23,150 nucleotides of DNA from a virus, in the IMG/VR virus record IMGVR_UViG_3300048922_000447, positions 1 through 23,150 of that record; one strand, 5' to 3'. Below the pieces are notes generated by a model. It had not been told where the DNA came from. It saw only the letters and a list, made by a program, of their open reading frames with translations, and did not search any database. The translations under genes and the position numbers were made by a program. Position 1 is the first letter of the stretch; each line of letters opens with the position of its first letter. This document shows, piece after piece, positions 2,999-20,178 of this stretch.

Positions 2999-3114
2999 GC
3001 AATCGTGATGCTCGGTATGGTTCGCCCGTTGCTGCAAATTCAGCGACCGGGTTTGGCGACCCGTCACACGTTAGGCGCATAGGCGCCCCCATCACGATTG
3101 CAGGCGCTTTTTTT
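2999..3114 (+). promoter_or_regulatory. Leader attenuator-like structure: 12-base inverted repeat plus T7
   Basis: GCAATCGTGATG (2999-3010) is the exact reverse complement of CATCACGATTGC (3090-3101). The second arm lies in the loop of a short GC hairpin (GCGCC 3083-3087 with GGCGC 3103-3107) that is followed at once by seven T (3108-3114), which looks like an intrinsic terminator. AGGCGC occurs three times (3073, 3081, 3102). Pairing of the long arms would compete with or pseudoknot the hairpin, so premature termination may be switchable. A weak sigma70-like TTGCAG (2994) / TATGGT (3016) pair is also present. Confidence 0.5.
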
Positions 3115-3118
3115 GTGC

Positions 3119-3200
3119 CCGCAGTCCCGTGTTATGGCGGCTGTGCGCGGGAGGCCTTCGGGTCTGCCGGGTTCCTAACGTCCCGGTTCGCCAACCTGCG
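3119..3200 (+). ncRNA. C4 / P4 CI-like antisense RNA (approximate ends)
   Basis: This segment contains a UUCG-capped stem (AGGCC 3152-3156 with GGTCT 3161-3165). Two antisense stretches follow, CCTAACGT (3174-3181) and TCGCCAA (3188-3194). Both have exact complements upstream (TTGGCGA 3053-3059, ACGTTAGG 3068-3075) and again downstream (TTGGCGA 3223-3229, ACGTTAGG 3250-3257). That is the seqB versus seqA/seqC layout of the P4 CI immunity RNA and of C4 antisense RNAs, which act on the leader of an early phage operon. The downstream target overlaps the AGGAG ribosome site of the gene at 3268, so pairing would hide it. Ends are guesses; processing is not visible in sequence. Confidence 0.65.
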
Positions 3201-3203
3201 TAC

Positions 3204-3261
3204 AGCTGCCACCCCAAATCGTTTGGCGACGGTTCGTGGCAGCTCCTCAACGTTAGGAGCT
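3204..3261 (+). promoter_or_regulatory. Structured target/ribosome-site region of early operon
   Basis: AGCTGCCAC (3204-3212) pairs with GTGGCAGCT (3236-3244), and the loop holds a second hairpin (CCAAA 3214-3218 with TTTGG 3222-3226). Next to it AGCTCC (3241-3246) pairs with GGAGCT (3256-3261), burying the AGGAG (3255-3259) that serves the ATG at 3268. The same bases take part in the antisense pairing from 3174-3194, so at least two exclusive folds control access to this ribosome site. Confidence 0.6.
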
Positions 3262-5481: not shown

Positions 5482-5701
5482 GGTCACGCCTATTCGCCGC
5501 AAGGGTGCCGGTGGTCCACCGACTGCTGGCTCCCACATCGACAGCGCCAGCTATGCGCTGCTAGTGGAAATCCTGGTGGGCTTCCTGGAACTGCGCATTG
5601 CCGAGGGTGGTGCTGGTCGTCACTGCCCTGAACTGGAGCGCCTGACAAATCAACTGGAGCGGCTCGCCAAGCGATTCACGCCACCGCAGGGGGCCGCATG
5701 A
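5474..5701 (+). CDS. Small hypothetical protein
   Basis: A 75-residue protein with a basic, Gly/Pro-rich N-terminus (VTPIRRKGAGGPP) and two predicted helices (YALLVEILVGFLELRIAEGG, then CPELERLTNQLERLAKRF). ATG 5474 has GAGGG (5461-5465) 8 bases upstream and overlaps the preceding gene by 8 bases. Its stop overlaps the primase start (ATGA). No family recognised; its position suggests co-translation with the primase. Confidence 0.6.
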   Translation: MSKVTPIRRKGAGGPPTAGSHIDSASYALLVEILVGFLELRIAEGGAGRHCPELERLTNQLERLAKRFTPPQGAA

Positions 5702-6588
5702 CCGACGCGACGATCCTTTTTCGTGACGTGCTCCAGTCGGCCTACGGGCCGCTCGACTGGCTGCCCCTGGACGATGGCGATATCCACCGCTTCCACGTTC
5801 CCGGCGACAAGCCTGGCACGCTCAATGGCTGGTACTGCCTGTTTGCTGATGGCATTGCCTCGGGCGCGTTCGGGAGCTGGAAGACGGGCGGCACCAACAC
5901 CTGGTGTAGCCGTGAACCGGTGGACGCCCGCGAAGCCGAGCATGTGCGCCAGCGAATCGAGCAGGCCCGGCGACAGCGGGAGGCCGAACGGCAGCGGCGC
6001 CAGCTCAGAGCGGCCGGCCTGGCGCAGCGCTGGTGGCGTGATGCCCGTCGTGCTGATCCGGCCCACCCCTACCTGGTCGCCAAGGACATTCGAGCCCATG
6101 GTTTGCGCCAGCGTGGTGACGACCTGCTGGTCCCCCTGTATGCCGGTGGTGTGCTGGTGAACCTGCAACGGATCGCCCCGGACGGCGACAAGCGCTTCCT
6201 GTATGGCGGGCGGATCAAAGGCGCCTATTCGCCACTGGGGCGCATCACGCCGGGCAAGCCACTGTGTATCTGTGAGGGATGGGCCACGGGTGCCACGCTT
6301 CACGAAAGCGGCTACACGGTCGCTTGTGCGATGAACGCCGGGAACCTGAAACCGGTGGCGTTGGCGCTACGGGCCGACCACCCCGACACCGAAATCATCA
6401 TCGCCGGCGACGACGACCGCCAGACCGAGGCCGAGGGCAAGGGCAACCCTGGGCGCACAGCCGCCCATGAGGCCGCTGCCGCGTGTGGCGGCCTGGTGAC
6501 TCTCCCCGAGTGGCCAGCCGATGCGCCGCTGACCCTTACCGACTTCAACGACCTAGCTGCTTGGAGGTGCCGCCATGCGCCCGCCTGA
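5698..6588 (+). CDS. Toprim-domain primase-like protein
   Basis: A 296-residue protein. The N-terminal ~70 residues are compact with conserved Trp/Cys (NGWYCLFADGIASGAFGSW). A basic coiled segment (about 80-115) comes next, then a region leading into a Toprim fold. Visible Toprim residues are E193 in CICEGWATGATL and the acidic cluster D238-D240 in IIIAGDDD. This matches the primase half of the P4 alpha / phage primase lineage: making primers or loading on the element's replication origin. No Cys4 zinc-ribbon primase motif is obvious. It overlaps the helicase gene by 14 bases. In P4 primase and helicase are one protein; here they are split into two adjacent genes. Confidence 0.85.
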   Translation: MTDATILFRDVLQSAYGPLDWLPLDDGDIHRFHVPGDKPGTLNGWYCLFADGIASGAFGSWKTGGTNTWCSREPVDAREAEHVRQRIEQARRQREAERQRRQLRAAGLAQRWWRDARRADPAHPYLVAKDIRAHGLRQRGDDLLVPLYAGGVLVNLQRIAPDGDKRFLYGGRIKGAYSPLGRITPGKPLCICEGWATGATLHESGYTVACAMNAGNLKPVALALRADHPDTEIIIAGDDDRQTEAEGKGNPGRTAAHEAAAACGGLVTLPEWPADAPLTLTDFNDLAAWRCRHAPA

Positions 6589-8374
6589 TACCAACGTCAT
6601 CAACCTGCGCCCCGAGGCGCCCAAGGTTGAGCCTGACCGCCCGTGCTGGGGTGTGTATGAGCACTGGGTGACCAACGAGAAGGGCCGCAGGCTCAAGCCC
6701 GGCGTGTACTGGCACGGCTTCAAGCGCAGCGCCGGCGACGACGACAGCGACGACGATAAGGCCGACCGCCCGATCACTGACGAGTGGATCGCCACGCCGG
6801 TGACCGTCGCTGCCCGCACCACCAACAGCGACGACGGCAGCGAAGGCCGGTTCCTACGCCTGTTCACCGACAACGGCCCCAAGGACTGGATCATTCCTAT
6901 GGAGGTGTTCGGCGGGAGTGGCGAGGACGCCAGGCGGACGCTGTTCGGCATGGGCGTCATCATCGCCCTGAAGAAGCGCGGCCAGTTCATGGAGTATCTG
7001 CTGGAGCAGCGGCCTGCAGAGGTGTTCGCCACCACCTGCCGCCCCGGCTGGCATGAGTCAGGCGCCTTTGTGCTGCCTGGGCGCACCATCGGCAGCGACA
7101 AGGTGCGCTATCAGGCCAGCGCCAAGGGGCAAAACCTTTTCAGTGTGCGCGGCAGTCTGGAGGGTTGGAAGGCCGAGGTGGCGGCCAAGTGCGAGGGCAA
7201 CCCGATACTGACCTTGGCCATCGGCTGCGCCCTCGCTGGCCCGCTGCTGAGCCTGGTGGGTGTGTTGGGTGGCGGTGTTCACCTGGTGGGCGACAGCTCC
7301 AGCGGCAAGTCGCTGGCGCAACTGATCGGCTCATCCGTATGGGGCGACCCCGGCATCTTCGCCGCATCGTGGGACATGACCAAGGGCGGCTTGGAGATCG
7401 AGGCGTCCAGCCGTAACGACACCATGCTGCCTTTGGACGAGATCAAGCGGGCCGATCCCAAGCGCGTACAGGAAATGGCCTACTCGCTCGCCAACGGCCA
7501 GGGCAAGGGCACCATGACCCGTGACCGGGAGGCCCGCGGCAAACTGAGCTGGCGCCTGCTGGCGCTGTCCAGCGGTGAGCGCTCTCTTTCCGAGCACGCG
7601 GCCATCAGCGGCAATGCCGCCCACGCTGGCGCTGAGCTGCGCATGGTTGACGTGAACGCCGGTACCCGCACACACCGCGCCTTCGATGAGTTGCATGGCC
7701 TGGAGGGCGCTGACTTCCACCGCCAGCTCACGGTGGCTGTAGGAGCGAACCATGGGCACATCGGGCCGGACTTCGTGGAAAAGCTGCTGGCCAGCGATGA
7801 CCGCCCTGGCCTGCTGGAGGACTTCGCCGGTATCCGCGCCCAGTTCACCGAGGACAACGCCCAGGCCGGACGGGTGGCGGATCGCTTCGCGGTGATCGCG
7901 CTGGCCGGCGAAATGGCCATTGCCTACGACCTTTTGCCCTGGACGCCGGGCACCGCTCTGGCCGACTGCCAGTTGCTGTACGGCGAGTGGCTGAGCCGGG
8001 TGGGCGGTGGCAATGCCGAAGACCGCCAAATCCTGGCCGGCATCCTCGACTTCATCGACAAGCACGGCAGTAGCCGGTTTTCGGACGTAGAAGACCAGAC
8101 GTCGGACACCAAGGTGTTCAACCGCGCCGGGTACTGGGAGGTGGTGGGCGCCAAACGCCTGTACCTGTTCAACAAGTCCGCACTGATTGAGGCCGCTCAT
8201 GGGCACGGGCTGGCGCGTGTCGTGAAGGCGCTGGAAGGCGCTGGCGCTCTCGCCAAGCACGATACCGATCGGGACAGCCGCAGGACCAAGAAATACCGCC
8301 TGCCTGCTGGTGGGTCTGCCCGCCTGTATGTGATCGATCCCGACGCCTTGGATAGCGAAGGCGGTGGCCTATGA
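6575..8374 (+). CDS. DUF927-domain superfamily helicase (replication)
   Basis: A 599-residue protein; ATG 6575 is preceded by GGAGG (6563-6567). Residues 20-200 hold the DUF927-type N-terminal region (CWGVYEHWV near 24, CRPGWHESGAFVLPG near 155). An ATPase core follows with Walker A GDSSSGKS (239-246) and an acidic Walker B-like LPLDE (285-289). The C-terminal ~120 residues resemble a small winged-helix domain (RFSDVED near 500, YLFNKSALIEAA). Such proteins are the helicase partner of Toprim primases in P4-like islands and would unwind the element's origin. The gene ends with ATGA into a short frame, and GGGGAAC iterons begin about 50 bases after its stop. Confidence 0.87.
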   Translation: MRPPDTNVINLRPEAPKVEPDRPCWGVYEHWVTNEKGRRLKPGVYWHGFKRSAGDDDSDDDKADRPITDEWIATPVTVAARTTNSDDGSEGRFLRLFTDNGPKDWIIPMEVFGGSGEDARRTLFGMGVIIALKKRGQFMEYLLEQRPAEVFATTCRPGWHESGAFVLPGRTIGSDKVRYQASAKGQNLFSVRGSLEGWKAEVAAKCEGNPILTLAIGCALAGPLLSLVGVLGGGVHLVGDSSSGKSLAQLIGSSVWGDPGIFAASWDMTKGGLEIEASSRNDTMLPLDEIKRADPKRVQEMAYSLANGQGKGTMTRDREARGKLSWRLLALSSGERSLSEHAAISGNAAHAGAELRMVDVNAGTRTHRAFDELHGLEGADFHRQLTVAVGANHGHIGPDFVEKLLASDDRPGLLEDFAGIRAQFTEDNAQAGRVADRFAVIALAGEMAIAYDLLPWTPGTALADCQLLYGEWLSRVGGGNAEDRQILAGILDFIDKHGSSRFSDVEDQTSDTKVFNRAGYWEVVGAKRLYLFNKSALIEAAHGHGLARVVKALEGAGALAKHDTDRDSRRTKKYRLPAGGSARLYVIDPDALDSEGGGL

Positions 8375-8710: not shown

Positions 8711-9013
8711 GTGAGCCTCCTATCCGACCTGCTCAATCACATGCCGCCGAATGTTGCTGGCGCAGGCAAACCACTAATGGCGAAACGCGTCCCGGATCGT
8801 CCGCGCCTGGTGCTGGTCGAGCCTGCCCGATTGCCATCAGGCCCTTACGCCAACGCCGCCAATGCCACGGCTGAATGGCGTCAGGCCCGCGACCGGTATA
8901 TCAGCCATGTGATGACCTGCCGGGGCTGCTATGCGCCCGCTGGTCGCCACTGCCTGATCGGTACCGAGCTGCGCGCCACCTACGACAACACGCCCATGGA
9001 GGCCCACCCATGA
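8711..9013 (+). CDS. Small Cys-rich protein, putative zinc-binding
   Basis: A 100-residue protein from GTG 8711 (AGGTGA at 8701-8706 upstream); the open frame extends back to 8558 but that part lies in the iteron region. Residues 54-92 contain W56 and H66, then C70-R-G-C73, H80-C81 and a GTELRATYDN end. The spacing W..H..TCxxC...HC..G..L...Y is one I recall from small proteins of Pseudomonas islands; it may form a zinc knuckle. Function unknown. It is the first gene after the putative origin and overlaps the next gene by four bases (ATGA). Confidence 0.65.
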   Translation: MSLLSDLLNHMPPNVAGAGKPLMAKRVPDRPRLVLVEPARLPSGPYANAANATAEWRQARDRYISHVMTCRGCYAPAGRHCLIGTELRATYDNTPMEAHP

Positions 9014-9609
9014 CCATGACCCCGACCATGCGCCTGTGCGATATCGCCTCAAAGCCCGGTATCAGCGCCAGCACGCAGCTCATCACCACCCGGCGTATCT
9101 GCCGCAACATCGGCCGCAACTTGGATTCGATCCACGCTGAGCGCCGCGTCATGCGCCGCCAGGCGGGCAAGCTGAAAGCGTTCCTGCCGTTCACCCGCCA
9201 GGCCATTGCCGATCTGGAGGAGCAGGCGCAGACCCACCGATCCGTAGAGCGAGCCAAGGCGCTGGTGGCGCTGGCCGGGTTTGGCCGGTCACTGCTGTTC
9301 GATCATGACGGGCTGGCTCAAACCCTGGGGGTCGACCGCCTGTGCGACCTGTTGAACGTGAACACGCTGGAGCGCGAAAAGGCTAGGCGGGAGGGCGTCA
9401 CCAATCTGGAAGACCTTGTGTTCACCTATGCGCTGGAGGACAGCGCAGAGCGCCGGGCGCAGGAGTGGAATGACGCGCCGCTGTTCAACGCCTGTCACGC
9501 GGCAATGGCGGACTTCATCAGGGATTGCCCGGATGGCGTATTGCCTGACCCGTTCGCACCTGGCGCGCCACTCGGGCCGAAACTGCCACCCAAGCTAAGC
9601 GTGGTGTAA
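9010..9609 (+). CDS. Hypothetical helical protein
   Basis: A 199-residue protein starting at ATG 9010, chosen for GGAGG (8998-9002) at 7 bases and the ATGA overlap with the preceding stop; longer in-frame starts would overlap that gene. It is almost entirely predicted alpha-helix. It has a basic N-terminal third (TTRRICRNIGRNLDSIHAER, then RRVMRRQAGKLKAFL), which could bind nucleic acid, and a Pro-rich end. No known domain. A regulatory or structural role cannot be told from sequence. Confidence 0.6.
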   Translation: MTMTPTMRLCDIASKPGISASTQLITTRRICRNIGRNLDSIHAERRVMRRQAGKLKAFLPFTRQAIADLEEQAQTHRSVERAKALVALAGFGRSLLFDHDGLAQTLGVDRLCDLLNVNTLEREKARREGVTNLEDLVFTYALEDSAERRAQEWNDAPLFNACHAAMADFIRDCPDGVLPDPFAPGAPLGPKLPPKLSVV

Positions 9610-9612
9610 GCC

Positions 9613-10557
9613 ATGGCCGCACCAGCAATGAAACAGGCGGATTCACCCGCCAAGACGAAACAGCGGGTTTCAGACGAGCAGCGCCAGCAGGTGCTGGAGC
9701 TACGCCGCCGCCACTCGCTGCGTGAGGTGGCCGAGATCACCGGTCTGCCGCTGGGAACGGTGAAGACCCTGATTTCACGGTCCGGGGCATTCCGCGACAA
9801 CGAGCAGCATCGCGCCTTGTTCACCCTGCCGCCGATCAGCGCCAGCACCGAGACGCTGCCGAGCGTGCCCGAGCTGCCGCCGCAGGAGGTGATTACCGGC
9901 GACAAGGAAGTGGATGCGGTGCTCTGGCTGCGCTCGATCATCAGCACCGGGCAGAGCGCCCTGATTGAACGGGCCATGGAGGGCGCCAAGAAGATCAGGA
10001 CGCCGCTCGATGCGCTGGAGAAGCAGTACCGGGATTACCTGGTGGCCACAAACCCTGGCCACCCATTCGCCGCCATGTCGTCGTTCGGCTTCGCTGACCT
10101 GGATGCGCTGGCCACGCGGGCCATCGAGCAGCACCGGCTACGTCTGGAAGGCGCCGCCCGCTTCGGTGATGCCCTGCTGGCCGACACCGAGGCGGAATCG
10201 TTCTGTATCGATGCGCTGCGCGGGCTGCGGGCTGACGGGCAATTCGGTGACTTCGACAAGGGCCAGGTAGCCGCCCGGTTCAACGCCCGCCCTGAGCTGC
10301 TGCCTCGCACCCTGGCTGATTGCCTGTACGAGCTGGGCTACTGGGACCACCTCTACCGGCTGCGTAACGCCGTAGACCGGGACGCCAGCGATGGGCCGCC
10401 TGACGCGACGGCGCGTGACTGGTTCGTGTTCGGCCTGCTGGCGCAAATCAGGCCACGCGATAAGGCCGAGGCGCTGGCGGTATTCCGCTACTTGATCGCC
10501 AGCCAGCGAGACGACATGGCGGAGTCAGAGGCAATTCTTTGCAACCTGATCGGGTGA
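9613..10557 (+). CDS. HTH-containing hypothetical protein
   Basis: A 314-residue protein with a resolvase/sigma-type helix-turn-helix near the N-terminus (about residues 24-58: LRRRHSLREVAEIT, then GLPLGTVKTLISRSG). A Pro-rich linker (72-95) and a ~200-residue helical domain follow. ATG 9613 has no strong ribosome site; ATG 9628 is an alternative. A DNA-binding role is likely. It precedes the tail genes, so control of late expression is possible, but a small-terminase-like role cannot be excluded from sequence. A short GGGCA/TGCCC hairpin lies at 10581-10592 after its stop. Confidence 0.65.
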   Translation: MAAPAMKQADSPAKTKQRVSDEQRQQVLELRRRHSLREVAEITGLPLGTVKTLISRSGAFRDNEQHRALFTLPPISASTETLPSVPELPPQEVITGDKEVDAVLWLRSIISTGQSALIERAMEGAKKIRTPLDALEKQYRDYLVATNPGHPFAAMSSFGFADLDALATRAIEQHRLRLEGAARFGDALLADTEAESFCIDALRGLRADGQFGDFDKGQVAARFNARPELLPRTLADCLYELGYWDHLYRLRNAVDRDASDGPPDATARDWFVFGLLAQIRPRDKAEALAVFRYLIASQRDDMAESEAILCNLIG

Positions 10558-10623
10558 CCAGCCCTATCAATCACACCACCGGGCATCTGCCCACAACAAG
10601 CGCCAGCGGCGCCAGAGGTACCC

Positions 10624-11016
10624 ATGACAGAACCAAGCAACAGCAGCACCTCACAGCCAACACACCGTGAGCGCTTTGCGGAGGCCTGCAAGAGCACGGA
10701 CTTCGAAGAGCACCCAACAATGGTGGCCGGTTACAAGGTCTGGAACGTGTCCGACATTGTGAAGGGCGGGCGTAAAGACTTCGATGGCCCGTACTTCACT
10801 GAGGAAGAGGCGAAGATCGCAGAGGAGCTTTGGCAAGCAACACCAGAGCGCAAATGCGCCCGTGCCGAGGTGGCCTTCCACTGCGCGGCCTGGAACCCAG
10901 ATCCACGACGAGAAAAGGCCATCCGAGAGGATGCGATGGCCGCTCGCATGATCCTTGCCGAGTTGATCGGCGCCGCTGTTCCCAAATCAAGCGCAACTGG
11001 CGCAGAGGAAAAATAA
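10624..11016 (+). CDS. Hypothetical protein preceding tail genes
   Basis: A 130-residue acidic protein. ATG 10624 has GAGG (10615-10618) 5 bases upstream. The N-terminus is Ser/Thr-rich and disordered. The middle has a compact alpha/beta stretch (HPTMVAGYKVWNVSDIVKGG) and the last third is helical (REKAIREDAMAARMILAELI). No family is recognised. It ends two bases before the tail assembly gene, so the two are probably co-transcribed. Confidence 0.6.
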   Translation: MTEPSNSSTSQPTHRERFAEACKSTDFEEHPTMVAGYKVWNVSDIVKGGRKDFDGPYFTEEEAKIAEELWQATPERKCARAEVAFHCAAWNPDPRREKAIREDAMAARMILAELIGAAVPKSSATGAEEK

Positions 11017-11018
11017 CG

Positions 11019-11609
11019 ATGGCCGCTATCGTTCGTAGTACCCCAGAGATGACGACTGTGTATCTATCGGGCCCGCTGATTCGGAAGTTTTTCCGCAAGA
11101 AAAACTATCTGTTGGACAGCCAGAACACCTGGGAGGTGTTTCGTGCCTTGAAGGCTACGCTGGAAGGCTTTGAACGGGAGATCAAGCGACTAGAGGCGCT
11201 GGGCATGAGGTTCGCAATTTTCAGGAATCGAAAGAACATTGGTACAGATGAGTTCGACCGGGGAGGAGCCAGAGAGGTGCGCATTGTGCCTGTCATCGCC
11301 GGCAGTAAACGCGGTGGTGTTCTGCAGACTGTGTTGGCGGCTGTCCTGATCGTCGTTGGTGCGGTTGCCCAGCAGCCATACCTAGTTCAAGCAGGTGCTG
11401 CCTTGGCGATTGGAGGAGTCATGCAGATGCTTAGCCCCCAGGCAAAAGGCCTCTCCCAAAGCGCAGCACCTGAAAACCTACCCAGTTACGCCTTCGGCTC
11501 AGCCAAGAACACCACAGCCAGCGGCAACCCGGTCCCGATCTGTATCGGCGAGCGGCGCTGGGGCGGCGCGATTATCTCTGCCTCGATTGAGGCGCAGGAC
11601 AAGGCATAG
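11019..11609 (+). CDS. Lambda-like tail assembly protein I
   Basis: A 196-residue protein matching the phage lambda gpI / tail-tip assembly family as I know it. The order is an N-terminal beta segment (TTVYLSGPLIRKF), then EVRIVPVIAGSKRGG (86-100), a hydrophobic, Gly/Ala-rich stretch to IGGVMQMLSP (101-140), and the C-terminal signature YAFGSAKNTTASGNPVP (157-173) with WGGAIISASI. Known gpI acts in assembly of the tail tip. ATG 11019 gives full family length; the frame is open upstream to 10830 but overlaps the previous gene. In lambda-type modules I precedes J and follows H/M/L/K; here it comes directly before a tape measure gene with none of the others, an unusual order. Confidence 0.85.
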   Translation: MAAIVRSTPEMTTVYLSGPLIRKFFRKKNYLLDSQNTWEVFRALKATLEGFEREIKRLEALGMRFAIFRNRKNIGTDEFDRGGAREVRIVPVIAGSKRGGVLQTVLAAVLIVVGAVAQQPYLVQAGAALAIGGVMQMLSPQAKGLSQSAAPENLPSYAFGSAKNTTASGNPVPICIGERRWGGAIISASIEAQDKA

Positions 11610-11617
11610 GAGGGGGT

Positions 11618-14600
11618 ATGACAAGCATTGCTCAACTTGGGATACAGATTGACAGTGAAGACGCTACTCAAGCGGCCTCTGATCTCGACAAGCTGACGGA
11701 CGCCGGTAAGCGCAGCGAGGAGTCGGCGGGCAGGACTGGGCGGGCGTGGGAGTCGGCCCTGGCAGGTATGCAAGGCGATACCCGCCAGATCGTGATAGAG
11801 CTTCAGCAGCTCAACCAGAAGCAGGCCCAACTGGCACAGCAGATGATCACCGTGGGGCGCGCAGTCACCACTGCGTCCACGGCGTTCAGCGGTGCGGCGG
11901 CCAACATTACCGCTCTCCATGCTGGCGCTGAGAAGGCCGGACAGGCCCAGGAAGCGCTGGCGACCGCAAACGACGCTAGCGCGCAAGCTGCCCGCCGATC
12001 TGCAGAGAGCGCCGAGGAGCAGCAGGCCCGCTTGCTGGGTATGGCCAAGGCCTCGCTGGAGGCCAGCGATTATGTCCAAACCCTGAACCGGGCCACGCAG
12101 CAGACGGTCGAGGTCACCCGCCAGGCCAACGCGGTGCTGTCGGATCGCGCCAGCCAACAAGCCGCTGTTGCCAGAAGGGCGCAGACAATTCTGGCCAACG
12201 AGGATCGGCTGGCTGCCGCGTCCAAGGCGACCGCTGCTGCTCAGCGCGAGGAGAGCAAGGCCCTGGGTGAACTGCTCGGCAAGATTGACCCGACAGTGGC
12301 CGCTTTGGGCCGCCTAGATGACATGGAGCGCAGGCTAGGGGGGTACCGGTCTTCCGGCGCGCTGGATGCTGAGACGTTCGCCGAGTATCAGGAGAAACTC
12401 AACCAAGCCCGCACGGCCTTGGGCGGTGTGGACACGGCCCTGGGCAAAACCGGCATGAGCGCGAAGCAGACCGCTGCGGCCATGCGGATGCTGCCGGCGC
12501 AGTTTTCGGACGTAGTGATCAGCCTGCAAGCCGGCCAGTCGCCGCTGACCGTTTTGCTTCAGCAGGGCGCCCAGGTCAAAGACTCGTTCGGCGGCGTTGG
12601 TGCCGCTGCTCGGGCCATGGGCGGCTATGTCGCCGGCCTGGTCACGCCAGTCAGCGCGGCGGCGGCTGCGGTAGGCGTGCTCGGCGTTGCCTACTACCAG
12701 GCCGGCAGGGAGCAGGATGCCTTTAACAAATCCATCATCCTGACGGGCAACTACGCTGGCACGTCCGGTGCCAAGCTGACCGAGCTGGCCAGGCAGATCA
12801 GCAGCACCGTGGGCACCACTGGCGCAGCCTCGTCCGTGCTGGCGCAAATTGCTGGCGCGGGTGATCTCGCCGGCGAGAGCTTCAAAACCGTGGCCACCAC
12901 GGCCATCGAGATGGAGAAGGCAACAGGCCGGGCGGTGGACGAGACACTGGCAGACTTCCGCAAGATCGCGGATGACCCGGTGAAGGCCGCGGAGGAGCTG
13001 AACAAGCGCTATCACTGGCTGACGGCATCCACCCTCGAGCAGGTCCGGGCCCTGGTGGATCAGGGCGAGAAAACCGAGGCTGTGAGGCTGATCACCGAGC
13101 AGTTCGGAGAGACCATGACCCGTCGAGCGCAGATCATCCGGGAGGAAATGAGCGGCCTGCCCAAGCTGTTCAATGAGATCGGGGATGCCGCCGCCAAAAT
13201 GTGGGATGGCATCAAGGGTGTATGGCGCGACCCCACCCTGGATAAGGTTGCGGATGGTCTACGCCTCCAAATCCAGTCCATGGAGAATATCCGTAAGGAG
13301 TTCCGCAACGACAAGAATTATGACCCCGAAAAACTGAAGGTTTGGAGGGCCAGGCTGGCTGAAATTGAAGGCCTCTCAAAGCCTGCTGCCGGCGTGGTGA
13401 GTACCGAAGGGCAGACAGCCTACAAGTGGATTCAAGACGAGCTGGATAGGACCGCTCCAAAGGCGGAAAAGCTCAAGAAGGCGCTGGATGAGGTCGACCG
13501 AGCCGTGGCCAAGGCGCGAGCTGACGGTCTGACGGTGACTGATGCTCAGGTTGAAACGCTGAAGCAGCAGGAGCGGGAAAAATACAAGCCGGCCCGGGGA
13601 AGAAGCACACCGGTGAATATGACGGATGTGAGCGACTCCCGAAATGCGCTGACTATGATCCTTTCCGACTATCGCGGATACGAGAAGGAACTCAACGCGA
13701 TCCAGAAGTTTGGCGTGATTTCGCAGGAAGCGGTGTATGCGCAACGGGTGGCCTTGGCCAAGCAAGAGAGGGCCGACGTGACGGGCGCCTACATGGAGGA
13801 GATCCAAGCGCTCGAGGAGGCCAAGGGGCGTGCCTCCACCACCGGCGAGCAGCGCATTCAGCTTGACCAGCGAATCGCCAAGGCTCGCTCTGACATGGTC
13901 CGTGCCCAGCGGGAGGCAGACTCCGAACTGGCGGTGCTGGCGACTGCCGAGCAGGGTCGCCAGGAGAAACAAACAGCCGCGTCGAAGGCTTTCGTCGATC
14001 AGCTTGAGCGTGAGCGCCAGGCGCTTGCCACGCGAGGTGATCGAGCGGCTGTGAGCGTTGGCCTGGGCGACCGCCAGGCAGGGCTACAGCGAGAGCTGGA
14101 TGATGTGACGGACAACTTCAACCGTAAGCGCGAAACACTCCTCGATCGCCGGCGTACCGCGCCCGACAAGTACACGAAGGAAGACCACCAGAAGGATCTT
14201 GCTGAACTCGAAGCGGCGGAGAACAAGTACCGGGATACGGTCGTCTCGAACTACGACAAGATGACCACTGCCCAGGGCGAGTGGCGAAACGGTGTCTCCT
14301 CTGGGTTCCAGAACTATCTGGAGAGCGCCAGAGACTTCGCGGGGCAGGCTCAGAGTGTTGTCACCGGGGCCTTCCACGGCATGGAAGATGCGCTGGTTCA
14401 GTTCACCATGACCGGCAAGCTGTCGTTCGCTGATTTCACGAAGGCGATCATTGCCGATATCTCGCGCATTGCCGCTCGGCAGGCCTTGGCCGGTTTGGCC
14501 GGCAGTGTGATCGGCTCGTTTGCCGGATCGGTGTTCGGGGGTGGCGGTACCACTGTCAGCCGCAGCGGTTTCAGCGAAGGCGGCTTTGTATCAGGTGGGC

Positions 14601-14986
14601 GCGCTTCGGGCGGCCCGGTATCACCAAACTCCATGTATGAGGTGAACGAGCTGGGGCCGGAGCTGCTGAACCACGGTGGGCGCACCTACCTGATGATGGG
14701 AGCCGAGGGCGGGAGCATCACTCCGCTTGGCGCCAGTGCGATAACGCCGCTTGCGGTGCCCCAGCAGATCATGGGCAGCGGCGGGAGCGGTGCGGCAGTT
14801 GCTCCGGTGGTGAACATCCAAATCAGCCGGGACGGCAGCTCTGAGGTTTCCGGTGACGCAGAGCTAGGGCGGAGCCTCGGGCCGCAGATGGTGAATCTGA
14901 TCCGTGCTGAAATCGCCGCTAACGAACGGAAGACGCTGAGCCCCAGCGGTGGGGCAACGTGGCGAGCCATTCAAGGGAGACGCTGA
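11618..14986 (+). CDS. Lambda-type tail tape measure protein
   Basis: A 1122-residue protein with an excellent AGGAGGGGG (11608-11616) before ATG 11618. Residues 1-220 are Ala/Gln/Glu-rich coiled coil. About 285-327 carry the lambda-H signature (MLPAQFSDVVISLQAGQSP, LLQQGAQVKDSFGG), followed by a hydrophobic stretch (335-362). Residues 480-900 are helical. Residues 921-975 match the lambda-family C-terminal domain (GMEDALVQFTMTGKLSFADF, ADISRIAARQAL), and the Gly-rich end has SEGGFVSGG and YEVNELGPELL. Tape measure proteins set siphophage tail length and help DNA delivery. The frame is intact. Its presence without tube, chaperone or capsid genes is odd: either a remnant or a protein supplied to a helper phage's tail. 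Confidence 0.9.
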   Translation: MTSIAQLGIQIDSEDATQAASDLDKLTDAGKRSEESAGRTGRAWESALAGMQGDTRQIVIELQQLNQKQAQLAQQMITVGRAVTTASTAFSGAAANITALHAGAEKAGQAQEALATANDASAQAARRSAESAEEQQARLLGMAKASLEASDYVQTLNRATQQTVEVTRQANAVLSDRASQQAAVARRAQTILANEDRLAAASKATAAAQREESKALGELLGKIDPTVAALGRLDDMERRLGGYRSSGALDAETFAEYQEKLNQARTALGGVDTALGKTGMSAKQTAAAMRMLPAQFSDVVISLQAGQSPLTVLLQQGAQVKDSFGGVGAAARAMGGYVAGLVTPVSAAAAAVGVLGVAYYQAGREQDAFNKSIILTGNYAGTSGAKLTELARQISSTVGTTGAASSVLAQIAGAGDLAGESFKTVATTAIEMEKATGRAVDETLADFRKIADDPVKAAEELNKRYHWLTASTLEQVRALVDQGEKTEAVRLITEQFGETMTRRAQIIREEMSGLPKLFNEIGDAAAKMWDGIKGVWRDPTLDKVADGLRLQIQSMENIRKEFRNDKNYDPEKLKVWRARLAEIEGLSKPAAGVVSTEGQTAYKWIQDELDRTAPKAEKLKKALDEVDRAVAKARADGLTVTDAQVETLKQQEREKYKPARGRSTPVNMTDVSDSRNALTMILSDYRGYEKELNAIQKFGVISQEAVYAQRVALAKQERADVTGAYMEEIQALEEAKGRASTTGEQRIQLDQRIAKARSDMVRAQREADSELAVLATAEQGRQEKQTAASKAFVDQLERERQALATRGDRAAVSVGLGDRQAGLQRELDDVTDNFNRKRETLLDRRRTAPDKYTKEDHQKDLAELEAAENKYRDTVVSNYDKMTTAQGEWRNGVSSGFQNYLESARDFAGQAQSVVTGAFHGMEDALVQFTMTGKLSFADFTKAIIADISRIAARQALAGLAGSVIGSFAGSVFGGGGTTVSRSGFSEGGFVSGGRASGGPVSPNSMYEVNELGPELLNHGGRTYLMMGAEGGSITPLGASAITPLAVPQQIMGSGGSGAAVAPVVNIQISRDGSSEVSGDAELGRSLGPQMVNLIRAEIAANERKTLSPSGGATWRAIQGRR

Positions 14987-15270
14987 TGAACAACGAAGAA
15001 CGGGCACGGCTGGTCACGGCGGTCAGCGACACAATCACCAATCAGTTCATGCTGATGATGCCGGCGCAGCCCGATGCGCAGACCGTGAGGGCGTTGCTCG
15101 AGGAGATGATGGAGGCCGTCACACTGGCGACCGCCGCCCTCTTGCCGGGTTTCGAGGAGAATCCCGCCCATTACATCCAGATGGGGCGTATTGGAGCTGC
15201 CCCGTCACTCGAGCGGATGATGAAAACGGTGATGGCGCCGGGTAGCAAGGCTTGGTCGCCACCGAGCTAA
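14986..15270 (+). CDS. Small hypothetical protein downstream of tape measure
   Basis: A 94-residue, helical protein (starts MNNEERARLVTAVSDTITNQ) rich in Met and Glu. ATG 14986 overlaps the tape measure stop (TGATG) and has AAGGGAGA (14973-14980) upstream. No family is recognised. Its coupling to the tape measure gene and the terminator right after it make it the last gene of the tail operon. Confidence 0.65.
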   Translation: MNNEERARLVTAVSDTITNQFMLMMPAQPDAQTVRALLEEMMEAVTLATAALLPGFEENPAHYIQMGRIGAAPSLERMMKTVMAPGSKAWSPPS

Positions 15271-15278
15271 GTCGGAAT

Positions 15279-15309
15279 GAAGAAGCCGCCTGGAGGGGCG
15301 GCTTTCTTC
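15279..15309. terminator. Intrinsic terminator, probably bidirectional
   Basis: AAGCCGCC (15283-15290) pairs perfectly with GGCGGCTT (15297-15304) around a 6-base loop. The stem extends into GAAG/CTTC, with a T-rich tail (TCTTCT). It lies between convergent genes (stop 15270 on + and stop 15319 on -), and the mirrored purine/pyrimidine flanks would also give a U-rich tail on the minus strand. Confidence 0.85.
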
Positions 15310-15318
15310 TGCCGGCAT

Positions 15319-15927
15319 TTACTGGAGATCGGAGACATACGATTGCAGAGTTTCGACGTAGGGCGTGTACTGCTTTTCCCACTCATCGTCACCTGACAGC
15401 ACGTTGCTTTCGTCATGCCGGTAGACCTGCGCAACTTTCCAGCCACCTTCGGTCTTCTCGATCAGGTACTTGAAGTGCGCTCCCATCTTCCTGGCCCGCA
15501 GTTGGTCTGAAGTCCCTGTTGAGCTTGAAGGAGTGGCATTGGTGATCTTTGCGAAGGCGATCGCCCGTGTGTCGGTCTCCTGCTTGACCTGCAGAATCTC
15601 TCGGTCATAAACGGATCGCCAGCACACCGCTCTGGAGCTGTTCACCGACTGCTCTACGGCACCTGTCGACACGCTGGCCACGTCGAATCCATTCACATCT
15701 TTCTGGACAAAGGACTGGCATCTGGCGAGCTCTACAGCTTCCTTGGTGTCTAGGTAGCGCCACCACGTCTTCAAGGCCTGGTCAGGCGATGTGGTATTGA
15801 TCTCGAAGTCATAGCTGACAGTCGCTGCTGGCGCTTCGGACGGCGAACTCGTGCCTAAGGCAGACGACACCTTGTCGCAGGACGTGAGGATCAAGCACAG
15901 GGGCAGGAGGGCAAGTGCCTTTCTCAT
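15319..15927 (-). CDS. Predicted outer- or inner-membrane lipoprotein
   Basis: A 202-residue protein with a type II signal peptide: positively charged start (MRKALALLPL), hydrophobic core and lipobox L14-T15-S16-C17. Asp follows the lipidated Cys, which by the +2 rule favours inner-membrane retention. The mature part is alpha/beta (PDQALKTWWRYLD, then GGWKVAQVYRHDES), somewhat like small NTF2-fold lipoproteins; I do not assign a family. The start at 15927 is preferred over 15936 and 15972 because the signal peptide begins there and a GAGAA lies about 9-10 bases upstream. It is transcribed against the tail genes and sits like a phage-carried cargo (moron) gene that could alter the host envelope. 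Confidence 0.75.
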   Translation of the reverse strand: MRKALALLPLCLILTSCDKVSSALGTSSPSEAPAATVSYDFEINTTSPDQALKTWWRYLDTKEAVELARCQSFVQKDVNGFDVASVSTGAVEQSVNSSRAVCWRSVYDREILQVKQETDTRAIAFAKITNATPSSSTGTSDQLRARKMGAHFKYLIEKTEGGWKVAQVYRHDESNVLSGDDEWEKQYTPYVETLQSYVSDLQ

Positions 15928-16157: not shown

Positions 16158-16673
16158 TCATGTTTTCAAGATCCATTCTGTAGGTATAAAGTCCGCGTTT
16201 CCAACTAAGGCCACAATGCGTTCGCACTCAGATGTAGGGGAAACCCAAATTATTTCGCCGATACTTCCAGAGTGTTGTCCTAGTATTTTGAATACCGCAC
16301 GTGCAGCATTGTCGTTAGATGCTATGATGCTTTTAACCAGAATGGCAGCATCCACAACGTGTGCGTCTTTCTTTGCAATCAGCTTCTGGGTGTCGCTAAT
16401 TTGTGCTGCGTCAATTATTTCCGAGACACTAGATGTTATATTAACTCGGTCTATTTTTTTCTTCGCGGTCATCGACGAGTGCCATCTAGTCGAATATAGA
16501 GATTTATGCTTGTTCCATTCATCTCGTAAAGTTGGGCAGAATACAGCTCTCGCCTCTGACTCTAATATGGCTTTGAGTACCTCTCGAGCCCCTTTCGAAA
16601 CTGGGTTCTCTGATACCCCTGCTGCCCTTGCCACGTCAGCATCGACAACAAAACTCTGGCACTTAATTTTCAT
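16158..16673 (-). CDS. PIN-domain nuclease-like protein, partner of ATPase
   Basis: A 171-residue protein. It shows a PIN-type acidic set: D11 (VVDADVA at the end of strand 1), E52 (RDEW), D103 and D108 (KKDAHVVDAAIL), and D121 (IASNDNAA) after a beta strand, in the canonical order. PIN domains are Mg-dependent RNases/nucleases of toxin-antitoxin, RNA decay and defence systems. Start 16673 is chosen because AGAGG lies 9 bases upstream and PIN strand 1 begins there; the frame is open to 16712. It overlaps the ATPase end by 11 bases, so the two are translationally coupled. Both are AT-rich relative to the phage genes, a sign of recent transfer. The likely role is an ATPase-controlled nuclease effector. 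Confidence 0.75.
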   Translation of the reverse strand: MKIKCQSFVVDADVARAAGVSENPVSKGAREVLKAILESEARAVFCPTLRDEWNKHKSLYSTRWHSSMTAKKKIDRVNITSSVSEIIDAAQISDTQKLIAKKDAHVVDAAILVKSIIASNDNAARAVFKILGQHSGSIGEIIWVSPTSECERIVALVGNADFIPTEWILKT

Positions 16674-17970
16674 TTTCAGCGGCCTCTTCAGCGGCCTCTT
16701 CAACGGCATCAAGATATTCTTGCTCTACGTCTAGGGCCACGCTGTCGAAATCTTCGGGCCAGTCGCCAAACGCGCCAAAGTTATCCAGCTTTGATTTATT
16801 TATCTGAGTCTGACCCGTTGTTGGGTCTTGAGTGAACCAATTTAAATTAACTTGTTCGCCTTTGAGAAAGCCTTTTGCAACCAATATTTGAATTCCGCGA
16901 ATTAGTATGGAGCTATGAGTTTCGATGACTACGTGTACGCCGCCGTCAATCACAGCGCTTGCGATTATTTTGGAAAGCTCATACTGAGCTCGAGGGTGTA
17001 AATGAAGCTCCGGTTGCTCCACATATACAACTTGCCCCTTCTTAGCTGAAAGCAGTGCGACGAGTACTGGCAGGGTTTGTGAGACGCCAAACCCTACATC
17101 AGCAATATTTACATAATCAGATTTGGCCGCCGCACATCCTCTATGTCGGGAGATTAGGATCTCGAGGCGCGTATCATTTATTGGAGAAATGTCAATTGAT
17201 GTGGCCAAACCCAGATCTTTCAATTGAGCGATCAAAGTTTTAAATTTTTGTTGGTTGGTTCGTGTGTTTTTCCAGCGGCTGATGATACTGGCTATGTATC
17301 TTTCAAAAGAGCCGGGGAATTTTGATTCGGATGAGGCTACTTTGTACGATCTTTCCGGATTTCCTCGTAGTCCGGGAACGTGAATCAAATCTGAGGTTAG
17401 TCTTTTCAAACCCTCTGCTGGCAGTACGCCTGCGGAGAATGGTAATCTTTTGGAAGAGTGGAGTTTCAGCCCCAAAAAGCAACGATCCCTGACCACTCGC
17501 CAACTCAGTCCTTCAAAGTTTTCAAATACACCCTTGAATGGTTCAAATTTTTCGTTTGTCAGAATGGATTGGATCTCAGTGTTTTTCATTCCTAGGCGGA
17601 TTTCAGATCCCTGGTTGAAATCACCTCCACTCATGCTCATTTTTTCAACGGTTATTCCGCGCTTTGCATTGAATTTGTAAGATGCGGTAATGCTCTTTTC
17701 AGCAGATTCAAGCGTGACGCTAAATGAGTTTAGATTCGATTCGGGAACTTTTGATATTATTTCGCTGGAGTCGGTTAGTCTGACGTTTGCACCGTCTAGA
17801 AGAAGCGAGCCCGAGTCAAATTCATTCTCAATCGACTGCTTCATTAATAGTAGAGGTTGCATAAAACTAGATTTGCCTGAGCTATTGGCTCCGGCAAGGA
17901 TTGTTAATCCACCAATTTCAATAGAGCGTGGTTTGGCTATGGATTTGTAGCCTTCAATTGTTATCTTCAT
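16663..17970 (-). CDS. AAA/ABC-type ATPase (OLD-like, DUF3696-like C-terminus)
   Basis: A 435-residue protein starting at 17970, with AGGAGGGG about 4 bases upstream; the frame opens earlier at 17997 but without a ribosome site. The N-terminus MKITIEGYKSI leads to Walker A G27-ANSSGKS (27-34). A long insertion follows, then the Walker B/D-loop region VVYVEQPELHLHPRAQ and the H-loop ETHSSILIRG. The C-terminal DNFGAFGDWPEDF stretch resembles DUF3696. These RecF/OLD-type ATPases act as sensors in several defence systems (Septu, PARIS, Gabija), each with a different nuclease partner. Here the partner is a PIN protein. The C-terminus ends in an acidic EEAA repeat encoded by a 12-base tandem repeat (16678-16701) that also supplies the next gene's ribosome site. 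Confidence 0.85.
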   Translation of the reverse strand: MKITIEGYKSIAKPRSIEIGGLTILAGANSSGKSSFMQPLLLMKQSIENEFDSGSLLLDGANVRLTDSSEIISKVPESNLNSFSVTLESAEKSITASYKFNAKRGITVEKMSMSGGDFNQGSEIRLGMKNTEIQSILTNEKFEPFKGVFENFEGLSWRVVRDRCFLGLKLHSSKRLPFSAGVLPAEGLKRLTSDLIHVPGLRGNPERSYKVASSESKFPGSFERYIASIISRWKNTRTNQQKFKTLIAQLKDLGLATSIDISPINDTRLEILISRHRGCAAAKSDYVNIADVGFGVSQTLPVLVALLSAKKGQVVYVEQPELHLHPRAQYELSKIIASAVIDGGVHVVIETHSSILIRGIQILVAKGFLKGEQVNLNWFTQDPTTGQTQINKSKLDNFGAFGDWPEDFDSVALDVEQEYLDAVEEAAEEAAENEN

Positions 17971-18351
17971 GACCCCTCCTTGGGGAAAATTTTGCATTTA
18001 TATCATTCTCCGCGTTCAAAAGGGAACTGGACATTGGCTCAGGAAGCCTGGAGATACGGGGATCAAAGGGATTGATGCGACATTGCTAGCCCGGCTGGCT
18101 GTAGCGTTACCCATCGGATGCCACCGCCTTGAGTGACTACCTTCTGTCCAGGGAACCTTTGAGAGGGGGGGGGGCGCTCGTCATGGGCGAATCGTTAGGA
18201 CGTTGGCCGGGCAACGAGTAATGGCAGACGATTCGGCTTGCAGCCGGGCCAGTTCGCACCGGTGGTTCGCACGCAAGGTTCGCAACCACTATGCGCGAAC
18301 CTGGTGACTACAATTGCACATCAATCTCTCCCGCGCATGAGGAGTATATGT
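17971..18351. other. 381-base divergent intergenic region
   Basis: This region separates the leftward ATPase operon from the rightward HEPN-like gene and must hold both promoters; I see no convincing -35/-10 pair. It contains a run of ten G (18165-18174), a possible slippage site. Near its right end is a cluster of GTTCGCA words (listed separately). No open frame with a ribosome site is apparent. Confidence 0.6.
18252..18302. promoter_or_regulatory. GTTCGCA repeat cluster, candidate operator
   Basis: GTTCGCA occurs at 18252, 18265 and 18278, exactly 13 bases apart each time. An inverted copy makes an 8-base palindrome with the last (AGGTTCGC 18276-18283, GCGAACCT 18295-18302). It lies 50-100 bases before the start of the HEPN-like gene, the right place for a regulator-binding site or 5' UTR hairpin. 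Confidence 0.45.
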
Positions 18352-19425: not shown

Positions 19426-20178
19426 ATGGCGAGGACGGCGGTAACTGAAAAGATGTATCAGGAGGCTTATCGCCTTGGTGCAAATATCTGGAGCCGCAGG
19501 ATTACTCCCTCCGAGGCGCGGAGAACGCTGGAGAATGAGTACGGCTTGAACGCAAAGACGGCAAGTGCATATCTGGGTGCGTATGACGGGCTACGTAGGG
19601 GGAGAACCCTAAAATTGACACCTAAGGTGGAGGCGTTGAGGTACATGATTAGTCAATTGAAAAATGATGTCGGCCACTCTGCTTTGCTGCCCGCTTTGCA
19701 ATCGTTGGGCGGCCATATCGAGTACCTTGATTCTTTCCCATCTACCAAGCTGTCCAAGCAATCATCACTCCGGAACCTCTATGAGGAGTTGCTTCCAGAA
19801 TTGTCGCCTGTGGCGAAGGCTGCCGATGAAGACGAGACTTTTGCTCAACAGGTCGCCGACGCAATTGCTGACTCTGCTTTTGACCGAGCCAAACGTCTTG
19901 CCCATGCCAATCCTGTGCCTCTGGTAAGGCACCAGATTGTAAAAACATTTCGCCGCAATCCCGATGTTGTGGCAGAGGTACTGCTTCGTGCCAAGGGAGC
20001 TTGTGAGGGGTGTCGTTTACCCGCTCCATTTCAGCGTCCGGATGGCAGTCTCTACCTGGAGGTTCATCACATAACGCGCTTAGCTGATGGGGGGCACGAT
20101 ACTGTAGAGAACGCCCTTGCCCTGTGCCCAAACTGTCACAGAGAAAGGCACTATGGGCGACAGCTAAATCCAGCGTGA
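19426..20178 (+). CDS. HNH endonuclease
   Basis: A 250-residue protein with AAGGGGAG (19413-19420) before ATG 19426. The C-terminal 60 residues form an HNH nuclease: C193-x2-C196, the catalytic EVHH (214-215), N229 and C234-x2-C237-H238, with DGGHDTVENALALCPNCH characteristic of McrA-like enzymes. The N-terminal ~105 residues (TEKMYQEAYRLGANIWSRRI, ending LGGHIEYLDS) match an accessory helical domain that I recall upstream of HNH domains in many bacterial proteins. A modification-dependent restriction role is plausible but the target is unknown. It is followed directly by the tandem repeat array, with no clear terminator between. Confidence 0.85.
   Translation: MARTAVTEKMYQEAYRLGANIWSRRITPSEARRTLENEYGLNAKTASAYLGAYDGLRRGRTLKLTPKVEALRYMISQLKNDVGHSALLPALQSLGGHIEYLDSFPSTKLSKQSSLRNLYEELLPELSPVAKAADEDETFAQQVADAIADSAFDRAKRLAHANPVPLVRHQIVKTFRRNPDVVAEVLLRAKGACEGCRLPAPFQRPDGSLYLEVHHITRLADGGHDTVENALALCPNCHRERHYGRQLNPA

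Follow-up and report, generated by a model that had tools for sequence, protein, structure and literature searches.

Putative DNA-delivery genes in a cargo slot of P4-like Pseudomonas satellites

The analyzed stretch of DNA (here, the window) is the whole IMG/VR record IMGVR_UViG_3300048922_000447, 23150 bases long, and it starts at the first base of an integrase gene. The tyrosine integrase (positions 1 to 1326; PF00589, PF13356, and PF22022) lies, like all features described up to gD, on the plus strand. It is of the tRNA-Thr type in relatives: L135, L137, and L158 have integrases 94 to 95% identical to it, sited behind tRNA-Thr. It is followed by an AlpA regulator (2336 to 2593; PF05930, 2.2e-13) and a P4-type immunity region (3015 to 3216), which consists of a C4 antisense RNA (3130 to 3216; RF01695, 83.3 bits) and an a1/b1 target (3015 to 3067; RF03163, 55.5 bits). 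The C4 antisense RNA is likewise present in L141, L143, and L169. Further downstream, a toprim primase (5698 to 6588) and a DUF927 primase/helicase (6575 to 8374) together span 5698 to 8374 (PF13362, PF06048, and phrog_1139). The last backbone genes, gB (phrog_7215) and gC (phrog_6204), occupy 9010 to 10557 and belong to PHROG families without a named function. Att-like repeats of the tRNA end bound five relatives: L141 (16.2 kb, with a tape measure), L143 (19.7 kb, ejection genes), L169 (25.7 kb, an ejection cassette), L138 (15.4 kb, gpI), and L155 (17.9 kb, two gpIs). Such a repeat was not found at many other satellite loci, nor did searches of the window reveal either of two att-like sequences known from relatives. 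We conclude that the satellite elements of this family are small and bounded.

The earlier note on this DNA, which was made from the sequence, had described a satellite-like element without capsid genes. Indeed, no capsid, portal, or terminase gene was present in the window among the Pfam and PHROG matches listed. When the 62 non-cargo ORFs of the window, L141, L143, and L169 were compared with PHROG, 49 families matched at 0.001, and none of the best 25 was a head, packaging, or additional tail family; the remaining 24 had a best E value of 2.4e-7 or weaker. By its gene content, we classify the element as a P4-like satellite of Pseudomonas and assign it to the type of phiAH14b, a 16.8-kb satellite (KU708005; Dziewit and Radlinska 2016) reported to be induced together with phiAH14a and packaged in phiAH14a heads (PMC4936722). 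The window helicase is 84.9% identical over 99% to phiAH14b p16, and both elements share the order integrase, AlpA, toprim primase, helicase, gB-like gene, c11, and gpI (gpI with 50% identity). In contrast to the window, phiAH14b has neither gC nor a tape measure, and its cargo is c11-gpI-lipoprotein. A helicase with 54% identity was also detected in PP003922 (Pseudomonas phage vB_Pae_U10, 10183 bp, P. aeruginosa), which was deposited as a phage and may be a satellite.

Behind gC, a two-hairpin leader (10566 to 10626), conserved in satellites, precedes the first cargo gene, c11 (10624 to 11016). This gene encodes a small protein, for which phiAH14b was the only match among 50,697 phage records. 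It is located 5' of most satellite gpIs and was detected at 0 of 47 prophage loci. The AF2 model of c11 had a pLDDT of 80.5 and gave no Foldseek match at an E value of 0.001 or better in PDB or BFVD. Next come genes for a gpI-like tail assembly protein (11019 to 11609; phrog_32 "tail assembly protein," 3.2e-61) and a tail length tape measure protein of 1122 aa (11618 to 14986; phrog_24, 3.1e-207; Pfam PF06791 and PF09718). As the earlier note had stated, both frames are intact, the tape measure is of full length, and no other virion gene family was among the matches listed; purine-rich stretches are present 5' of both starts. The order of gpI and the tape measure gene is the reverse of that in lambda, also as described earlier, and in the Pseudomonas prophages examined the tape measure gene is upstream of gpI. 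Most of the full prophages L008 to L068 have a phrog_890/phrog_914-type lipoprotein gene directly 5' of gpI, and phiAH14a p83-p84 shows the same order.

Directly 3' of the tape measure gene is gD (14986 to 15270), which encodes a conserved helical protein of 94 aa. We take the ORF ending at 15270 to be a real gene; it is kept in P. monteilii (97%). Its AF2 model (mean pLDDT, 81.6) consists of four helices. gD had no match in the phage records and was found only in satellites and in one remnant (L226, a 27% match). On the minus strand follows c31 (15319 to 15927), a lipoprotein-like gene with the lipobox LTSC, which adjoins this type of tape measure and is present in the window, L139, L137, L071, and L073 (the latter being the same element as L139). 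A terminator behind the tail genes had been claimed before, and a terminator-like inverted repeat (GCCGCC/GGCGGC) with a T-rich tail can be read directly in the sequence at about 15280 to 15308, though the terminator scan did not list it. Farther downstream, the minus strand (16158 to 17997) harbors a gene for an AAA ATPase matching PADLOC NsnB (4.6e-58) beside a 184-aa gene without a match. The two probably form a defense pair, and the pair is nearly identical in L049. In addition, an HNH nuclease gene at 19426 to 20178 matched a type IV restriction model (4.3e-23).

Wherever the sequence of a satellite locus extended beyond the stop codon of the tape measure gene, an ORF of 94 to 110 aa came next (9 of 9). 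The idea of a satellite-specific partner 3' of every tape measure was refuted for the c65 type by a genome search: the c65-type gene was present in seven genomes, and in L227, L228, and L229 it is located behind the tape measure gene of a full prophage. Therefore, satellites of the c65 type probably captured the tape measure and the next gene jointly. At L230 (9982 to 10275), a c65-type gene stands alone in the chromosome, away from recognizable phage genes. Two fragments were also detected, the N-terminal third of a tape measure with 65% identity to that of the window in an open frame of only 412 aa (G376:C1:1931181-1932257) and a remnant in L226 (10384 to 11447), which combines the C-terminal end of a tape measure and a gD-like gene and has a resolvase close by.

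Relatives were collected by a scan of genome contigs with gpI (67 loci), by a helicase search that had matches in 117 of 398 Pseudomonas genomes (the AH14b-like loci among them, plus weaker ones for comparison, are L135 to L181), and from viral contigs (18 further loci). The gene order highlighted by the earlier note recurred in P. monteilii NBRC 103158 (L002), which carries the run primase-helicase-gB-gC-c11-gpI-tape measure-gD-lipoprotein; an integrase was not found there using that of the window. Tape measures of the same clade were detected in the same slot of L137 and L071, and L090 is a partial case. The satellites L003, L028, L047, L049, L058, and L066 carry gpI without a tape measure. 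Neither a full morphogenesis module nor decayed gpI or tape measure genes, which according to the earlier note would indicate a prophage remnant, were seen in the same element among the related satellites examined. In four of five relatives, colinearity with the window ended at 10612 to 10614, just 3' of gC, and in L069 at 10555. By this comparison, we regard the break in colinearity behind gC as defining a cargo slot, in which the window carries the leader, c11, gpI, the tape measure, and gD as an operon apart from the backbone. For example, L072 and L140 share 8.1 kb of 98.4% identical sequence that ends with gC; beyond it, hub and spike genes are found in L072, and no cargo was recognized in L140.

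The slot content varied between gpI, two gpIs, a tape measure, gpI with a tape measure, podovirus-type cassettes, an SLT-domain protein with a DNA ejection protein, and hub-spike genes. The podovirus-type cassette encodes an acetyltransferase, a short tail fiber, an internal virion protein, an SLT-domain protein, and a 2037-aa protein; other ejection cargo was identified as phrog_418 internal virion protein, SLT-domain ejection proteins, and DNA ejection protein, and the baseplate cargo as hub gp41, a spike N domain, and an Apex motif. With duplicates and short loci removed, recognized cargo was present in 47 of 56 slots: gpI in 21, two different gpI copies in 8, gpI plus tape measure in 3, tape measure alone in 7, ejection cassettes in 7, and hub-spike in 1; the other 9 had none recognized. 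This census leaves out the duplicates L073, L149, and L085, as well as L082, L167, and L172, which have too little sequence 3' of the helicase and had no cargo, and loci with helicases under 78% (L173 to L177 and L179 to L181), none with recognized cargo. Despite their shortness, L135, L075, and L079 stayed in the census, as they showed cargo, and L161 was moved from the none-recognized class to gpI after a direct match. Since L049, L058, and L066 came via the gpI search, the census is biased toward gpI. Among the slots drawn from the 398 genomes regardless of cargo, 28 of 36 carried cargo (gpI, a tape measure, or ejection proteins), and in 8 none was recognized (29 of 39 if L149, here counted as a duplicate of L093, L167, and L172 are restored). 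By these family assignments, the cargo consists of DNA-delivery parts of three virion types. The c11-gpI pair was also found on a different backbone in a second satellite-like type (L004 to L007, L026, L051 to L055, L059, L062, and L063); in L004, no head family was detected in the five proteins scanned.

The leader comprises about 60 bases with two short hairpins and is located 5' of the first cargo gene, whether this is c11, gpI, the tape measure, or the hub. A model built from 24 sequences gave one match each in 36 of 64 satellite loci, 12 of which lay outside the sequences of the model. The leader was present whenever the cargo was gpI, a lambda-type tape measure, or a hub (36 of 36) and missing from the 28 other satellite loci, namely, 4 whose tape measures are of other types, 7 with ejection cassettes, 9 in which no cargo was recognized, and 8 whose helicases fall under 78%. 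Furthermore, the leader was absent from the 20 full-prophage loci searched. Weak matches were obtained in the second satellite-like type, on the plus strand in L052, L053, and L055 and on the minus strand in L026. The leader matched no Rfam family at the gathering score. Its stems hardly vary and a covariation test revealed no compensatory change, which speaks neither for nor against an RNA structure.

In the comparison of the window with L139, dN/dS was lowest for gD (0.015), followed by gpI (0.067), the tape measure (0.084), the helicase (0.114), and c11 (0.13). A second species carries the same gpI-tape measure cargo under purifying selection (dN/dS 0.07 to 0.08). In most comparisons, genes of the ejection cassettes had values of 0.03 to 0.15 (about 0.05 for the two largest podovirus-type ejection proteins), and the range for cargo was 0.015 to 0.33. 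Distant tape measures of the other type gave 0.42, and the acetyltransferase of the near-identical pair L086-L169, with almost no synonymous change, was an outlier at 2.5. Between the window and L139, dS was 0.69 to 0.98 for gpI, the tape measure, and gD, and 0.26 to 0.36 for the primase, helicase, gB, and gC; c11 was backbone-like (0.31). The higher dS of the cargo, together with the colinearity break, indicates that the slot content has its own history. In a tree of 66 tape measures (a quick tree with some long branches), the 10 satellite ones need six label changes, from which we conclude that tape measures were captured by satellites several times. Those of the window, L139, L137, and L071 form one satellite-only clade beside the prophages L088 and L091. 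Separating satellites from prophages in a tree of 89 gpIs needs three label changes, and satellite gpIs are therefore old lineages; they form clades of their own, common to the second satellite-like type with another backbone.

These data bear on the explanation that the tail genes are role-less leftovers of a prophage or debris of passing recombination. Repeated capture of tape measures and the decay seen in L226, where a tape measure end is accompanied by a gD-like gene, are in line with it. Opposed to it are the dN/dS values of the cargo, including those of most ejection cassette comparisons, the satellite-only clades, a leader common to unlike cargo, and the lack of any other structural family among the matches listed. 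A prophage remnant was rejected on the grounds of intact frames, purifying selection on gpI, the tape measure, gD, and c11 (0.015 to 0.13 versus L139), satellite-only clades, and slot structure, and we consider leftovers of either kind very improbable. The earlier argument that intact frames speak against decay is thereby supported.

The earlier note had also suggested that the element reprograms the tail length or host entry of a helper phage. Tail length does not fit: tape measures of the window's satellite clade have 1121 to 1143 aa versus 1116 to 1162 aa in eight prophages. Between satellites, the middle of the tape measure is most conserved and the last approximately 190 aa are most variable, a pattern that speaks for changed tip or injection properties rather than changed tail length. 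A change in host entry is consistent with the cargo spectrum of the satellite family, and we keep it as an inferred function.

Lambda gpI and the lambda tape measure both act at the tail tip initiator step. Starting from the directly established cargo identity, slot, leader, selection, and captures, we propose that helper particles receive delivery proteins encoded by the satellite, with an effect on cell entry. The helper phage would induce the satellite, which would borrow the helper head and tail tube and add its own gpI and tape measure, entering helper tails at the initiator step. By this inferred incorporation, DNA delivery from the resulting particles would rely on injection proteins encoded by the satellite. 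What the satellite would probably gain is entry where helper injection is blocked, for example, into lysogens that exclude via the tape measure or ejection proteins; alternatively, cells with another inner-membrane requirement could be entered. As the weakest step, the satellite would itself practice exclusion through the neighboring lipoprotein.

A report on P22 SieA, which also discusses Ltp and HK97 gp15, describes tape measure or ejection proteins as the targets of superinfection exclusion proteins (PMC10883804). These targets are of the classes found in the satellite cargo; those systems are on the blocking side, whereas the satellites carry would-be targets. Since all cargo types belong to the DNA-delivery apparatus and exclusion proteins target the tape measure or ejection proteins, we hold a supply of delivery proteins to be the most likely reading, tentatively and with a probability just short of even. 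In favor of it, the cargo is confined to delivery parts, evolves under purifying selection, and has a history apart from the backbone, and tape measures were captured repeatedly. The most variable part of the tape measure, the C-terminal 190 or so aa, lies at the end for which binding by Ltp has been proposed (PMC3952083). In addition, swapped ejection proteins are described to work in hybrids when the partners move together (PMC10883804). Several observations count against it. Enrichment for a coresident helper was weak: another lambda-type tape measure prophage was present in 15 of 37 genomes with these satellites versus 90 of 361 (Fisher p 0.05). G001 and G270, which harbor tape measure satellites, had no other tape measure match at an E value of 1e-60. 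Furthermore, most satellites carry gpI only, and gpI is reported to be absent from the mature tail (PMC4936722), so altered injection explains gpI-only cargo poorly. Finally, phiAH14a/b particles were reported to be tailless (PMC4936722). Their authors noted gpI in both elements, and the satellite of that strain carries c11-gpI-lipoprotein.

The tailless particles fit better with sabotage, in which the cargo mimics parts of the helper or a competitor, enters assembly, and jams it as a dominant-negative gpI or tape measure. The phage would lose tails or injection, and the satellite or the host would gain. phiAH14a has a full tail module (PMC4936722) and still yields such particles, satellite gpI clades stand apart from prophage gpIs, two different gpI copies are often present, and the window contains defense-like genes. 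Moreover, Tai tail assembly inhibition systems, likewise satellite-borne genes that act at phage tail assembly, are known from satellites and P4-like elements (PMC11364771). Sabotage would work in the manner of Tai, except that the cargo of the window consists of homologs of tail parts, which would serve as mimics. On the other hand, complete multigene ejection cassettes with lysozyme domains, a hub with a spike, tape measures of normal length, and strong purifying selection exceed the needs of a poison, and a satellite that strips its own helper of tails would lose transfer. We regard sabotage as the chief rival, less probable than a supply of delivery proteins but still a serious candidate.

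The lipoprotein genes raise another explanation, namely, that gpI and its adjoining lipoprotein gene were taken from a tail module as a pair serving superinfection exclusion, with the tape measure riding along. In the set of 47 prophage loci, a satellite-like lipoprotein gene is located just 5' of gpI (three query lipoproteins gave 16, 21, and 6 loci in overlapping sets), and in satellites, members of these families (phrog_890 or phrog_914) are found just 3' of gpI. However, exclusion by a resident lipoprotein needs neither a tape measure nor ejection cassettes, and some gpI satellites have no recognized lipoprotein gene beside gpI; we judge this explanation quite improbable.

The satellites resemble several known systems. 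They share AlpA, C4 antisense RNA, primase-helicase, and the lack of a complete structural module with P4 and P4-like elements, but P4 remodels the helper head with sid, whereas the satellite of the window carries delivery genes (PMC4936722). Capsid-forming PICIs and the Streptomyces satellites MulchRoom and MiniFlayer also carry certain virion genes themselves (PMC10690885). These are heads and packaging functions, in contrast to the delivery parts without a head seen here; the PICIs borrow tails, and MiniFlayer also has its own tail fiber (PMC10690885). An own major capsid, portal, and terminase, which characterize capsid-forming PICIs, were not among the families listed for our satellites. 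Satellites of the phiAH14b type and their gpI have been known since 2016. In the parts consulted, that report (PMC4936722) describes neither a slot for cargo nor a leader, and it mentions no tape measure of a satellite and no ejection proteins. In open-licence PubMed Central articles, we found no description of the slot, satellite tape measures, ejection cassettes, hub-spike cargo, leader, or shared gpI lineages.

A broader version of the proposal that satellites supply delivery proteins is that Pseudomonas satellites carry exchangeable entry kits, one per helper morphotype (gpI and tape measure for siphoviruses, ejection cassettes for podoviruses, and hub plus spike for contractile tails, with the long-tail kits behind the common leader). 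With the injection machinery of the helper exchanged in this way, satellite particles would gain entry to helper lysogens or to hosts from which the helper itself is excluded. We consider this version doubtful. Known hijacking by satellites centers on heads and packaging; if the proposal is true, satellites also rewrite cell entry, and tests of recognition and of the evasion of superinfection exclusion could draw on the tape measures and ejection proteins of their cargo as a ready natural collection. Even if the cargo serves sabotage, it would represent a new use of tail parts as weapons.
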